Source: Nitrososphaerales archaeon
Lineage (GTDB): Archaea; Thermoproteota; Nitrososphaeria; Nitrososphaerales; CADDZS01
Direction: 5' to 3'
NCBI GenBank assembly: GCA_030038075.1
Contig: JASHPO010000035.1
Coordinates: 1 to 54,623, forward strand
Length of the DNA: 54,623 nucleotides
A program made the position numbers and the translations under genes. The notes under the pieces are model-generated. The model was not told the DNA's origin. It was given only the letters and a program-made list of their open reading frames with translations, and did no database searches. Positions 25,390 to 44,712 of this stretch are shown one piece after another. Positions within the stretch are counted from its first letter, which is position 1. Each line of letters starts with the position of its first letter.

Positions 25390-25860
25390 ATGTCGGTCGA
25401 AGAACAGCAATTACTTATACGACGGATAAAAGACGGGACTGTAATAGACCACGTGAGAGCAGGCGAGGCGCTCAGGGTCTTGCAGATCCTGGGCATCACC
25501 GGAAAGGACGGCGAGATAGTAAGTGTTGCCATGAACGTCCCCAGCTCGAAACTAGGCAAGAAAGACGTAGTCAAAGTCGCTAACAGATTTCTAAAGACTG
25601 AGGAAACTGACAAGCTAGCTCTCGTCGCGCCTCAGGCTACGGCGAACATTATCAAAAACTACAAGGTCTCTGCAAAGCACAGAGTCGAACTTCCTGACGT
25701 GTTCAAAGGAATCTTAAAGTGTCCGAACCCGACGTGCGTCTCAAATCTTGCAAACGAACCAATAATACCCACGATTGATGTCATAGACAAGGAGACGCCT
25801 CTCCTGAAATGCAGATTCTGTCAGAGGCTGATAACGGCTAACGAAACAGTTCTCGTCTAG
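25390..25860 (+). CDS. pyrI: Aspartate carbamoyltransferase regulatory chain
   Basis: IKDGTVIDHVRAGEALRVLQILGI; KCPNPTCVSN...LKCRFCQR zinc domain. Confidence 0.93.
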   Translation: MSVEEQQLLIRRIKDGTVIDHVRAGEALRVLQILGITGKDGEIVSVAMNVPSSKLGKKDVVKVANRFLKTEETDKLALVAPQATANIIKNYKVSAKHRVELPDVFKGILKCPNPTCVSNLANEPIIPTIDVIDKETPLLKCRFCQRLITANETVLV

Positions 25861-27317
25861 CCTTTTACCACGGCAATCGGGGTCAACCGGACGACCTTCG
25901 TCCCGATTCCCACGCTATCGGAGACATCGGCAACGGAATCAACGTCCTTGTAGGCTCCCGGTGCCTCTTCGACAACGCCCTTTTTGCTCGCTGCTTCCAG
26001 CAGGATTCCGCGGGACTCCAGGTCCTGCCTGACCTTTTCGTATGGATAGTTCCTGATTGCAGCTCCGCGGGACATCATCCTTCCCGCTCCATGGGCCGTA
26101 GATCCGAAACTCACTTCCATCGACTTTTCTCTTCCGAGCAAGACCCACGAAGCAGTCCCCATTGATCCCGGAATCAGAACTGGCTGCCCTATTGTTCTGT
26201 AGTCTTTGGGGACAGCCTCATTTCCTTTTGAAAAAGCTCTAGTTGCACCCTTTCTGTGTACAAAGACCTTCTGCTTTTTCTTCGGATTTGCCAAATCAAC
26301 AGAATGCTCCTCGACCTTGCAAATGTTGTGCGCCACGTCATACACCAGTTTCATGTCAAGATCAGACTCGCTCATTTTCATTACTCGTTCGAAAGCTTTT
26401 CGCACCCGTTGCGTAATGATCTGCCTGTTCGTCCACGCATAATTTAGAGCAGAACCCATCGCGAATCTGTAATTTTCGGCTTCTCTAGATCCGGCGGGTG
26501 CGCACGCCAGCTCGCGATCGGGGAGTTCGATCTTGAAATTGGGCGATGCGACGTCGATTATCTTCAGATAGTCGCTACAGACCTGATGCCCCAGACCCCT
26601 GCTTCCGGTGTGCATCAGCACGCAAACCTGTCCGGTTCTCCCAATTCCGAATGTCTGCGCCGCCTCGCGGTCAACCACATTGTTCACTGTCTCGATTTCC
26701 AAGAAATGATTACCGGAGCCCAGCGTTCCCAAGGATTTAGCGCCTCGCTTTTTCGCATCACCCGACACTTTTGAAGAGTCCGAGAGTTTCATCGTCCCAT
26801 TTTCTTCGCAGTGTTCCAGGTCTGACTGGGTTCCATACCCGTTGTTTATTGCCCATTTCGCTCCTTCGGCGAGCACGTTGTCTAGCTGCTGGGTCGAGAG
26901 GTTTAGCGCACCGACGTTTCCGAGCCCAGACGGAACGGCGTGAAACATTTCCTTCACAAGCTCCCTCAGTTTTGGCCGTACCTCTTCTTCGTTCAAGCTG
27001 GTTCGGAGCAACCTTACTCCGCAATTAATGTCGTACCCTACACCACCAGGTGAAATAACGCCCGTCTCGAAATCAGTTGCAGCGACCCCGCCGATCGGAA
27101 AACCATAGCCCTCGTGACCGTCGGGAAGAACTACAACGTGTTTCTTCACTCCCGGCAGAAATGTCACGTTCACAGCTTGATCGATAGTCCGGTCGGTTTG
27201 CATTTTTTCGATCAGCGAATCATTCGCATAGATCGTGACCGGAACTCTCATCCCCGACCTAGCAGTTTGCTCTATCCTGTACTCAACGTCGCCAACTTTG
27301 GTCATTCCAAATTTCAA
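25857..27317 (-). CDS. rtcB: RNA-splicing ligase RtcB
   Basis: VVLPDGHEGYGFPIGGVAATDFETGVISPGGVGYDINCGVRLLRT; HTGSRGLGHQVCSDY; STAHGAGRMMSRGAA. Confidence 0.95.
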   Translation of the reverse strand: MKFGMTKVGDVEYRIEQTARSGMRVPVTIYANDSLIEKMQTDRTIDQAVNVTFLPGVKKHVVVLPDGHEGYGFPIGGVAATDFETGVISPGGVGYDINCGVRLLRTSLNEEEVRPKLRELVKEMFHAVPSGLGNVGALNLSTQQLDNVLAEGAKWAINNGYGTQSDLEHCEENGTMKLSDSSKVSGDAKKRGAKSLGTLGSGNHFLEIETVNNVVDREAAQTFGIGRTGQVCVLMHTGSRGLGHQVCSDYLKIIDVASPNFKIELPDRELACAPAGSREAENYRFAMGSALNYAWTNRQIITQRVRKAFERVMKMSESDLDMKLVYDVAHNICKVEEHSVDLANPKKKQKVFVHRKGATRAFSKGNEAVPKDYRTIGQPVLIPGSMGTASWVLLGREKSMEVSFGSTAHGAGRMMSRGAAIRNYPYEKVRQDLESRGILLEAASKKGVVEEAPGAYKDVDSVADVSDSVGIGTKVVRLTPIAVVKG

Positions 27318-32358: not shown

Positions 32359-34695
32359 GTGGATAGCATGAGCAAAAAATCCGCCGGTAATGCAGATTCG
32401 GAGCAGTTGATGTGGGTTGAAAAGTACCGCCCTCAGAAACTTTCCGAAGTCATAAACCAATCTGAAATCGTTGAGCGCCTAAAGGCAACTGTGAAAAAGC
32501 CCGATGAAATGCCGCACATGCTGTTTGCCGGGCCACCCGGAAGCGGAAAAACTACGGTGGCACTATGCGTTGCTAAAGAAATCATGGGGGACAACTGGAG
32601 GGATTACACACTGGAACTGAACGCGTCAAACGAGAGGGGAATCGATACCGTCAGGGTGAGAATAAAGAATTTTTCGAGTTATTCGGATAGGAGAGAAAAC
32701 ATTCCATTCAGAATATGCCTTCTTGACGAGTCGGATCAGATGTGCCTAGATCCGGAAACAAAGGTTCTCTCCGGTACTCTTGGTGACCTGCACGAAACGT
32801 CTTTGCGGGAGCTATTGGAAGTCAATTCTGACCGCTCGTTTGATCTCCCATCGTTTTCTGGCAGATCCATGCGTGCAGAAAACGATCGCGGCAAAGTCAT
32901 AGTTTCCGGAAAGGCGGATTTGTATGAGATAGAGCTTGAGGACGGAAGACGGATTTCTGCCTCTTCCGACCATCCCTTCTTCATAGTGAACGGCACATCG
33001 ATTAGGACAATCAAGACCAGTGAATTGATTCCCAATGAGACTGTGATAGCAGATTATTCAAACAGATTCTTGCGTTGCTACCAATGCAAACGTATTTTTT
33101 ACCGTCATCATCCTTACAACGTGTACGAGCATTATTTCTGTTCCAAAGAGTGCAGGAACGTCTTCTTCGGTTCTCTGTCGAAAGATAGATCACCTCAGGA
33201 GCGACAACAAATATGGCAACTAGCTCTTAAGGGAATGAAGGATAAGGGCAGTTATACCTCGCCTTCCTATAGAGCGAAACGCTCCGAAATTGCGAAGAGG
33301 CTCCAACATGAAGGGAGGATTTTAAGATCTTCGCGATACAAAAAGGGCGAAGGTTACTGGTTAGGTAAGACACTCAGCGACGAACATAAGTTGGCTATAG
33401 GCAAGGGTACTCAGAAATTCTTCATCGAACATCCCGAAGCGGCCCGCGTAATTGGCGAGAAAGTAAAGATCTCTCTGGCGAGAGAAGATGGAACATATCG
33501 AAAGCTAGTCGCAAGCGGCTTTTTCAAAGAAGCGTCGAGGAAGGCATTCCTAGCCTCCACAGAGTATTGGAAGAGAAACCATTTCAGAAGCAAACTTGAG
33601 GTCCAAATGGCTAGCCTTCTCGACAAGTGGGGAATTCCATACCGCCGTGAACACGTCATATTCCACGACGAAAAAGGGAACGCGTATTCGCTTGTGCTCG
33701 ACTTTCTAATTAAAGAGAGAATCGTGTTACTTGTCCATGGCTGTTGGTGGCATGTTTGTCCAACATGCAGGATCGAGCCAAAGTACGAAAAACAGAGAAA
33801 GAACATGGAGAAGGATGACAAACGTGTTCGCGGGCTCGAGGAAATGGGGTTCAAGGTAGTAGTGGTTTGGGAGCATGAACTGAAGGAAGAAAAGACAATT
33901 CGGGACTCAGTGTTGCCCAGAATCTATGAGACTGTCGGCATAGCAGGCATGAGCTTGCACACGATCAAACACTCAAAAGTCGTGGCGGTGAGAAAAATCG
34001 GAGAGCGTGATGTACTAAATATCTCAGTTGAAAACAATCAATGTTTCTTTTTAGCAAACGGAATACTGACTCACAATACAAACGACGCGCAAACGGCCCT
34101 AAGACGGATAATGGAAGAAAGCTCGAGAACGACCCGTTTCATTTTGACGGCAAATTACAGTTCGAACATCATCGAACCGATCCAGAGCAGGTGCGCAGTT
34201 TTCAGGTTCCAACGACTAACTGAGGCCGATGTAGTATCGTATTTGGAATCGATTTGCAGAAAAGAAGCTATAAAGTTCCAAAAGACGGCTCTATCTACGA
34301 TATTCCAGGCGACCGAAGGCGACCTCAGGCACGCCTTGAACATGCTCCAAGCAGCTTCTAGTTTAGGAGACATTACAAACGAGAACGTGAACAAGGTCAC
34401 GGGACTTTCTGGGAAGGCCAAAGTCTCGGAGGTGATCGAAATCGCCCTAACAGGAGATTTCTCCAGCGCGAGGATGAAGATGATTGAACTCTTGCAGGTC
34501 TACGGAATGTCCGAGCACGATTTCATAAAGTATGCAAACGAAGCCCTCTCAAAATCAGAATATTCCACTTCCTTCGACGCGCTCCAAGCGACTGCCGACG
34601 CAGACTATCGGTTGCTGCTCGGGGCAAATCCCGATATCCAGCTGAGCGCTTACCTCGCGCAGCTCGCCAAGATCGGGAAGCAGCTCAAAAAGTAG
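32359..34695 (+). CDS. rfcS: Replication factor C small subunit precursor containing an intein
   Basis: WVEKYRPQKLSEVINQ; FAGPPGSGKTT; LLDESDQM | intein | TNDAQTALRRIMEESSRTTRFILTANYSSNIIEPIQSRC. Confidence 0.95.
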   Translation: MDSMSKKSAGNADSEQLMWVEKYRPQKLSEVINQSEIVERLKATVKKPDEMPHMLFAGPPGSGKTTVALCVAKEIMGDNWRDYTLELNASNERGIDTVRVRIKNFSSYSDRRENIPFRICLLDESDQMCLDPETKVLSGTLGDLHETSLRELLEVNSDRSFDLPSFSGRSMRAENDRGKVIVSGKADLYEIELEDGRRISASSDHPFFIVNGTSIRTIKTSELIPNETVIADYSNRFLRCYQCKRIFYRHHPYNVYEHYFCSKECRNVFFGSLSKDRSPQERQQIWQLALKGMKDKGSYTSPSYRAKRSEIAKRLQHEGRILRSSRYKKGEGYWLGKTLSDEHKLAIGKGTQKFFIEHPEAARVIGEKVKISLAREDGTYRKLVASGFFKEASRKAFLASTEYWKRNHFRSKLEVQMASLLDKWGIPYRREHVIFHDEKGNAYSLVLDFLIKERIVLLVHGCWWHVCPTCRIEPKYEKQRKNMEKDDKRVRGLEEMGFKVVVVWEHELKEEKTIRDSVLPRIYETVGIAGMSLHTIKHSKVVAVRKIGERDVLNISVENNQCFFLANGILTHNTNDAQTALRRIMEESSRTTRFILTANYSSNIIEPIQSRCAVFRFQRLTEADVVSYLESICRKEAIKFQKTALSTIFQATEGDLRHALNMLQAASSLGDITNENVNKVTGLSGKAKVSEVIEIALTGDFSSARMKMIELLQVYGMSEHDFIKYANEALSKSEYSTSFDALQATADADYRLLLGANPDIQLSAYLAQLAKIGKQLKK
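32743..34077 (+). mobile_element. Intein (445 aa) with Vsr/EDxHD-like endonuclease insert
   Basis: Starts C-LDPETKVLSG; block B GKADLYEIELEDGRRISASSDHPFFIVNG; ends NISVENNQCFFLANGILTHN followed by Thr +1. Insert contains CYQC...CSKEC, NUMOD-like GYWLGKTLSDEHKLAIGKG, and SKLEVQMASLLDKWGIPY...LVLDFLIKERIVLLVHGCWWHVCPTC...KDDKRVRGLEEMGFKVVVVWEHEL. Confidence 0.92.
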
Positions 34696-43116: not shown

Positions 43117-44243
43117 CTAAGACGAACCTTTTCGTCTCTTGATCATTTTCTCGCTTAGCTGGTGCATTTCGTCTATCGCGGCGCTGACGCTCGCTTTCCA
43201 TTCTTCGAGCTCCGCGATTCTTTTCTTGAGTGATTCTACGTCCTGCGATATGACGACCTGCGGACGTGGTTCTAGTATCGTCAGTTCCGATACTTCCTTC
43301 AGATATTCCTCTAGGAGCTCTTTTTCGTCCGGTCGATAGTAGTTGTCTTCGAGACCGAGCGTATGACCTAGAAGCATCTCCACGTGCAGAGACTTCATTT
43401 TTCGCTCGCATACCGTTTTGAAAAATTTACGAAAGCCGTGATCTGCTTGGAATTCGTACCGTTTCTTTCCCTTCTCTAACGTGGTTCTTAGACCCGTAGC
43501 TTTGAGCGCGTCCTCGATCAGTCGCTTGACGCCCGTACTCTTGAGCCGGATTGGAAGGTGAGGCTCGCCCTTCCCTAGATGGTCGGGGTGAAAGAGGTCG
43601 CGAATTAGCGGAGAATTGCTAGTGATTTTCTCGCCTTGCGACCTTCCGTAATCGACGTACTCCTGGATCGCGTGATAGCACTCCGGCGTTATGGAACTAA
43701 AGTACTCTTCCGAAGTCCCCGCGTAAATGCGAATCTTGCCGTTCTCGGAGATATGCCCGTAGTTCAGATAGTCGAAAGCGCCGATACGACAGCTACAAGA
43801 TTCCATTAGCAAGATCACGGGCTTGATTCTCCGGTCTGGGTAGGTTAGAATCTTCTTGATTTCCTCGACCGATGGCGCTCGATCGCTGGCAGCGCGTCGA
43901 CCTTTTGGAACACGGCGGGCTAGCTTTTTCCAATTCAGATTGATGTCGTTTTCCTCACAAAATAGCCTGATCGGCTTGTACATGTTTGCGACGCGAGACC
44001 GGCTATCTCTCCCTTTTCGACCCGCTCCTTTTGCGACTGAATGTAGCCATTGATTTGTATAGTAGCCCACTTTGGGTCTGATTGAGCTTGCAGACAGAAA
44101 AATTTCGCTTGAGCTTTGAATGCTCCCTCGATCTTCAGATAGTCAAAGAATTTCTTGAGGTCAGCTTCGTAGCCACGCCGAGTCTGAGGGTTTCTGATGG
44201 CAGAAAAGAACTCGGTCAATGGATCAAGCTTGAGGGCTTCCAT
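43117..44243 (-). pseudogene. Tyrosine recombinase/integrase, split by a frameshift
   Basis: N-terminal core-binding part in ORF 43935..44243 (FFSAIRNPQTRRGYEADLKKFFDYL...QINGYIQSQKERVEKGEIAG) continues in another frame as RVANMYKPIRLFCEENDINLNW in ORF 43117..44070; catalytic CRIGAFDYL, HGFRKFFKT, LLGHTLGLEDNYYRP. Confidence 0.8.
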
Positions 44244-44290: not shown

Positions 44291-44436
44291 TGCGGCGACC
44301 GGGATTTGAACCCGGGTTACCAGCGCACTGCTCTTGATTCATTTTTGAGAGATTGGCAGGCTGATGTCCTAGACCAGGATCTCCCGCATTTGATCATTCG
44401 TAGTTAAGGGACAAATTGCGTCTAGACGATCGCCGC
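44291..44436 (-). tRNA. tRNA-Gly(GCC) with two introns
   Basis: Exons 44436-44422 (GCGGCGATCGTCTAG), 44376-44354 (TGGTCTAGGACATCAGCCTGCCA), 44325-44291 (CGCTGGTAACCCGGGTTCAAATCCCGGTCGCCGCA). Acceptor GCGGCGA/TCGCCGC, D-stem GTC/GAC, anticodon stem TCAGC/GCTGG and T-stem CCGGG/CCCGG all pair. 37/38 intron has CTGC/GCAG helix with CAA and TGC 3-nt bulges (BHB). Confidence 0.85.
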
Positions 44437-44579: not shown

Positions 44580-44712
44580 GGGCCGGTCGTCTAGAGAAGT
44601 CCCTTCCACTTCGGAAAGCCTGGTAGGATACAGCGGTTCTGAAGAGTTTTTCTTCGCTGCATCTTGCACTTTGGCATGGTGGGGGTCCTGGGTTCAAATC
44701 CCAGCCGGTCCA
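44580..44712 (+). tRNA. tRNA-Ala(GGC) with two noncanonical introns (best parse)
   Basis: Exons 44580-44594 (GGGCCGGTCGTCTAG), 44621-44631 (TGGTAGGATAC), 44667-44712 (CACTTTGGCATGGTGGGGGTCCTGGGTTCAAATCCCAGCCGGTCCA). Acceptor GGGCCGG/CCGGTCC including G3:U70; D-stem GTC/GAT; anticodon stem CCACT/GGTGG; loop TTGGCAT; T-stem CTGGG/CCCAG. Confidence 0.75.

Follow-up and report, generated by a model that had tools for sequence, protein, structure and literature searches.

Two introns, one in the D-loop and a canonical one in the anticodon loop, in a tRNA-Gly(GCC) gene of a Nitrososphaerales archaeon

The window analysed here is a stretch of 54,623 nt with a G+C content of 46-50%, from the 2.6-Mb genome of an uncultured archaeon. 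At 44436..44291 on the reverse strand, its sequence reads as a tRNA-Gly(GCC) gene that is interrupted by one intron in the D-loop and by a canonical one at 37/38. The acceptor stem GCGGCGA/TCGCCGC forms seven Watson-Crick pairs and places the 5' end of the gene at 44436, as the preliminary description had proposed, and the discriminator A at 44291. Exon 1 (44422..44436, -) comprises positions 1-15, that is, the 5' strand of the acceptor stem, U8, C9, the D-stem 5' strand GTCT, A14 and G15; it was assigned by the 7-bp acceptor pairing and by its conservation among family members. It is followed by a D-loop intron of 43 nt at 15/16 (44379..44421, -), which was placed by the register in 46 relatives, by covariation and by the empty site of tRNA-Ala. 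Exon 2 (44354..44378, -) holds positions 16-37 (CCTGGTCTA GGAC A TCAGC CTGCCA), and exon 3 (44291..44325, -) holds positions 38-73; CCA is not encoded. The two are separated by the canonical anticodon-loop intron of 28 nt at 37/38 (44326..44353, -), which was found from the sequence, by our solver and by ARAGORN after removal of the D-loop intron. Its BHB, with the central helix CTGC/GCAG and the bulges CA^A and TG^C, is the one described before. All stems of the gene are intact, and the acceptor, the T-arm and the anticodon arm can be fitted only if the inserts are bridged.

A tRNA-Ala(GGC) gene with G3:U70 lies divergently next to tRNA-Gly (44580..44712, +); it was identified by the solver and by ARAGORN on the spliced form. 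Its exons (44580-44594, 44619-44631 and 44667-44712, +) are interrupted by an intron of 24 nt at 15/16 (44595-44618, +) and one of 35 nt at 27/28 (44632-44666, +). The divergent Ala-Gly pair is kept across the family. In the sister genome G001 the tRNA-Ala gene (L146) carries a different D-loop insert, and the intron sets differ among sister genomes.

Neither ARAGORN nor, at the gathering score, the Rfam tRNA model reported a tRNA in the window. ARAGORN also gave no call on the unspliced tRNA-Gly precursor, and Rfam produced a weak partial match of 18.9 bits to the 3' part of the gene. A naive 5' end near 44388, which had been said to fail, indeed resulted in no ARAGORN call. When the D-loop insert was removed, ARAGORN called tRNA-Gly(gcc) with a 28-nt intron, and when the 37/38 insert was removed as well, it called tRNA-Gly(gcc). 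Because of these results on the edited sequences, both inserts are required to explain the gene, and the claim of a two-intron tRNA-Gly(GCC) holds, also in that the inserts recur in relatives. The D-loop insert has the features of an archaeal BHB tRNA intron at a noncanonical position, and its removal restores a full cloverleaf that includes the conserved tRNA nucleotides. At 43 nt, and with no Rfam match at the gathering threshold in the window, it does not qualify as a self-splicing group I or group II intron. The exons are collinear within 146 nt, unlike those of split or permuted tRNA genes. Since the D-loop site is missed by ARAGORN and by the Rfam tRNA model, the annotated tRNA sets of these archaea can easily fall short.

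The single sequence permits two registers for the D-loop intron. In the 43-nt register, the central helix is GTCT/GGAG (3 bp and G.G), the cuts are AG^A and AT^C, and an intronic helix CGCA/TGCG lies beside it. Excision of 44421..44379 leaves GTCT-AGCCTGGTCTA-GGAC and a mature tRNA of 75 nt. In the 45-nt register, proposed in the preliminary description, the same intron would be spliced as 44421..44377, leaving a 73-nt tRNA with the D-loop AGTGGTCTA, and would be held by GTCT/AGAT and an outer helix GATC/GGTC. This copy offers four of four central pairs and a 4-bp outer helix for the 45-nt register, and ARAGORN accepts the 73-nt product. Two versions of our home-made solver were split between the registers, one weighting preferring 45 nt. 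Across the relatives, however, GTCT/AGAT is paired in only 37.8% of the central-helix cells, compared to 85.4% for GTCT/GGAN. The empty sites of tRNA-Ala retain CC, which speaks against the 45-nt register, and its forced fold was 4 kcal/mol worse than that of the 43-nt register. We consider splicing at 44377 unlikely. The D-loop intron is thus best placed at 15/16, 44421..44379, because of the alignment of the relatives and the empty-site tRNA-Ala orthologues. Of the earlier proposal the 5' splice site stands; the 3' site is off by 2 nt and should be 44379, and a tRNA of 75 nt replaces that of 73 nt. The GTCT/AGAT pairing is present in this copy but not kept among the relatives, and the pairing shifts to GTCT/GGAG.

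The central helix of this copy has three of four pairs (G10 faces G), and since it is only 3 bp long we regard its BHB as relaxed. Folded without constraints, the precursor reached its minimum energy (-48.1 kcal/mol) without the BHB; forcing it gave -42.0 kcal/mol, a cost of about 6 kcal/mol, which speaks against the proposed structure. Unconstrained folding was of no help in the choice of the register.

We compared the D-loop site among relatives. All nine sampled genomes of the family carry an insert at the same site, each in a Gly-type gene, with variable lengths and fixed exon edges. About 43 of the 301 genomes of the order have an insert at this position, belonging to families f1, f4, f10, f12 and f14; reversed control patterns gave no match in the 301 genomes. 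The matches that were followed as far as the anticodon were all Gly(GCC) or Gly(TCC). One of the carriers, G017, has a genome in a single contig with a listed completeness of 100%, which excludes an assembly artefact. These data confirm that the D-loop intron is real and widespread in the group. A phylum-wide pattern search gave no match outside the order, a result of little weight because the pattern was built on, and demands, the exon sequence of the order itself. The intron lengths across relatives range from 17 to 90 nt; the upper value, found for the orthologous tRNA-Gly in G004 (L042, contig C34), is long for an archaeal tRNA intron.

In 46 sequences the arrangement GTCY-AG^N-stem ... 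stem-GGAN-NN^NC-TGG was found in register and without gaps, except for one or two loose copies, e.g., in G069. This alignment points to a central helix of about 4 bp that is flanked by splice-site bulges. When the cut is set 2 nt past each strand of the central helix, all mature D-loops start with AGTCTGG, AGCCTGG or AGACTGG, and the latter two are also the forms found in Gly genes of the same order that lack the insert.

Covariation was determined on the 41 distinct copies (cores). The expected pairs held in 88.5% of the paired cells, compared to 29-54% in slid registers. The covariation score was 0.409 versus 0.130 for shuffled sequences, with 0 of 500 shuffles reaching the observed value, and 56 cells were changed on both sides versus 16 in the shuffles; the sequences are related, and therefore the shuffle counts are not probabilities, while the slide control retains the relatedness. 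The intronic helix showed compensatory changes at all four pairs, the first pair being CG in 21, UA in 11, GC in 5, AU in 2 and GU in 2 cores. Covariance of the BHB in relatives, named earlier as a check, was thus found, for the 43-nt register. As judged from these alignments, the structure is kept by strong compensatory change. The 46 covarying introns at one site provide material to train intron finders and to test how EndA reads relaxed BHBs.

Genes without the insert showed the predicted exon join. In genomes of the same order lacking it, the Gly genes read GTCTAGACTGG or GTCTAGCCTGG. In five sister genomes (G003, G005, G006, G007 and G008) the D-arm of tRNA-Ala has no insert and reads GTCTAGCCTGGTAGG, where GTCTAG|CCTGG is exactly the predicted join. 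The tRNA-Ala of G001 lacks the second insert (GGATACCACTTTGGC) and again matches the prediction. At the level of sequence, these same-order Gly and sister-genome Ala genes represent intron-free orthologues with the exact exon join, and the comparison of relatives now gives the D-loop site a clean definition.

We also considered whether the locus is a decayed or disrupted tRNA pseudogene, resulting for example from a tandem 5' duplication or from the nearby integrase, with another copy supplying Gly(GCC). The 3' end of the intron, taken together with the exon behind it (GCGGGAGATCCTGGTCTAG), bears a loose similarity to the 5' end of the gene, and a frame-disrupted, tyrosine-recombinase-like gene begins 47 bp past the tRNA 3' end. 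In this integrase-like gene (43117-44243, -; PHROG_1, E=5e-6), the R, HxxR and Y motifs were recognised by eye, and the coding sequence is divided between two frames, 43935-44243 and 43117-44070. Against decay stand the intact stems and the conservation of the exons and covariation of the introns across the order. Moreover, a search of the genome with Rfam and a T-loop pattern revealed no second Gly(GCC) gene. The loci fetched from relatives that share the insert contain no integrase homologue, and the tRNA 3' end was not found a second time. We therefore regard a pseudogene as very improbable. An origin of the insert from an att site was rejected, since neither a repeat of the tRNA 3' end, in the window or elsewhere in the genome, nor an integrase homologue at the relatives' loci turned up.

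For tRNA-Gly we observed the gene anatomy, the conserved and covarying BHB, the empty-site orthologues, and the presence of two EndA paralogues and of RtcB. Two genes for EndA-family proteins (PF01974) are present in this genome, as in nearly all relatives. The tRNA-splicing ligase RtcB (25857..27317, -; PF01139, E=6.9e-172) is the presumed ligase for these exons. We estimate a probability of about 0.9 that the gene gives rise to a functional tRNA-Gly(GCC), from which EndA would remove two BHB introns and whose exons RtcB would join. EndA is described to cut the introns of archaeal pre-tRNAs at BHB motifs, and the lineages rich in noncanonical introns are given as those with two different EndA subunits (PMC4090602).

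The transcription, the cleavage, the order of events, the assignment of the enzymes and the decoy role in the following scheme are what we infer. Before splicing, GTCT (10-13), the 5' strand of the D-stem, would pair with GGAG just inside the 3' end of the intron. The intronic GGAG/GGAN resembles the D-stem 3' strand GGAC and may serve as a decoy; by imitating GGAC it would hold the D-stem 5' strand until splicing. The intron-internal stem CGCA/TGCG would stack beside the central helix. Protein binding or co-transcriptional folding could supply the cost of about 6 kcal/mol for the BHB. EndA would then cut on both strands 2 nt beyond the central helix, at AG^A and AT^C, and release the 43 nt of 44421..44379. 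The anticodon-loop intron, 44353..44326, would be cut at its canonical BHB. Ligation by RtcB would lead to the standard D-loop AGCCTGGTCTA, and the pairing of the D-stem would move from intron to exon.

The family's intron-rich tRNA set is more interesting than the single tRNA-Gly gene. The tRNA genes of the genome were located by the Rfam search and the T-loop pattern. Of the 29 genes that were parsed, 27 contain introns. With two doubtful ones in tRNA-Ser set aside, the introns number about 41, and roughly 23 of these lie away from 37/38; this count of about 40 was made with a parser of our own on a genome that is 86% complete. One more gene, read as Pro(TGG), is intact. Introns at 15/16 occur in five genes, Gly(GCC), Gly(TCC), Ala(GGC), His(GTG) and Lys(TTT), and the other noncanonical sites are later D-loop sites, 22/23, 24/25, 27/28, 29/30, 30/31 and the variable loop. 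Three introns were parsed in one tRNA-Pro(GGG) gene. The tRNA-Arg(GCG) gene (L082, G000:C68) is 218 nt long and carries two or more introns, including one in the D-loop; its D-arm region (CCTAGCATGGAT / CCTAACATGGAT) occurs twice.

Features of this kind are already known, also from Thaumarchaeota. The earlier statement that D-loop introns are best known from Thermoproteales understates the literature, since 107 noncanonical introns were reported in Thaumarchaeota genomes, where a separate BHB model was used (PMC8450103); a two-intron tRNA in a thaumarchaeal-like genome was correct in kind. As in the noncanonical BHB introns of Thermoproteales and Thaumarchaeota, the site lies outside 37/38 with BHB junctions, a canonical intron co-occurs in the same gene, multi-intron genes are found and two EndA paralogues are present (PMC8450103 and the text of PMC4090602). 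A difference is that 15/16 is not mentioned among the sites in the text of PMC4090602, whose list ends in "etc.". In the present genome the 15/16 site recurs in five tRNA genes, and within the order it is filled in Gly-type genes from five families. The split tRNA-Gly of Caldivirga maquilingensis (PMC4090602) is likewise interrupted at two or more places, and its junctions form BHBs. Here, however, the pieces would lie in one transcript (cis-splicing), and the break is in the D-loop instead of at 25/26.

The genome has about 1.4 introns per tRNA gene, compared to an archaeal mean of 0.21 and 0.84 in Thermoproteales (PMC8450103). Pyrobaculum calidifontis, with 71 introns in 46 tRNA genes, has a comparable density and also many noncanonical sites (PMC8450103), whereas the present genome appears to fall within the order of ammonia-oxidising thaumarchaea and not within Thermoproteales. 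We see an even chance that 15/16 is an old intron site, repeatedly used in the order by way of the D-stem 3' decoy, and that the family, at about 1.4 introns per gene, matches the Pyrobaculum record in an unrelated lineage. With its intron density, the family can serve as a second, independent system for studying why introns accumulate in the tRNA genes of some archaea. Elsewhere in the window, the gene for the small subunit of replication factor C (32359-34695, +) contains an in-frame intein (PF14890) of about 430 aa.
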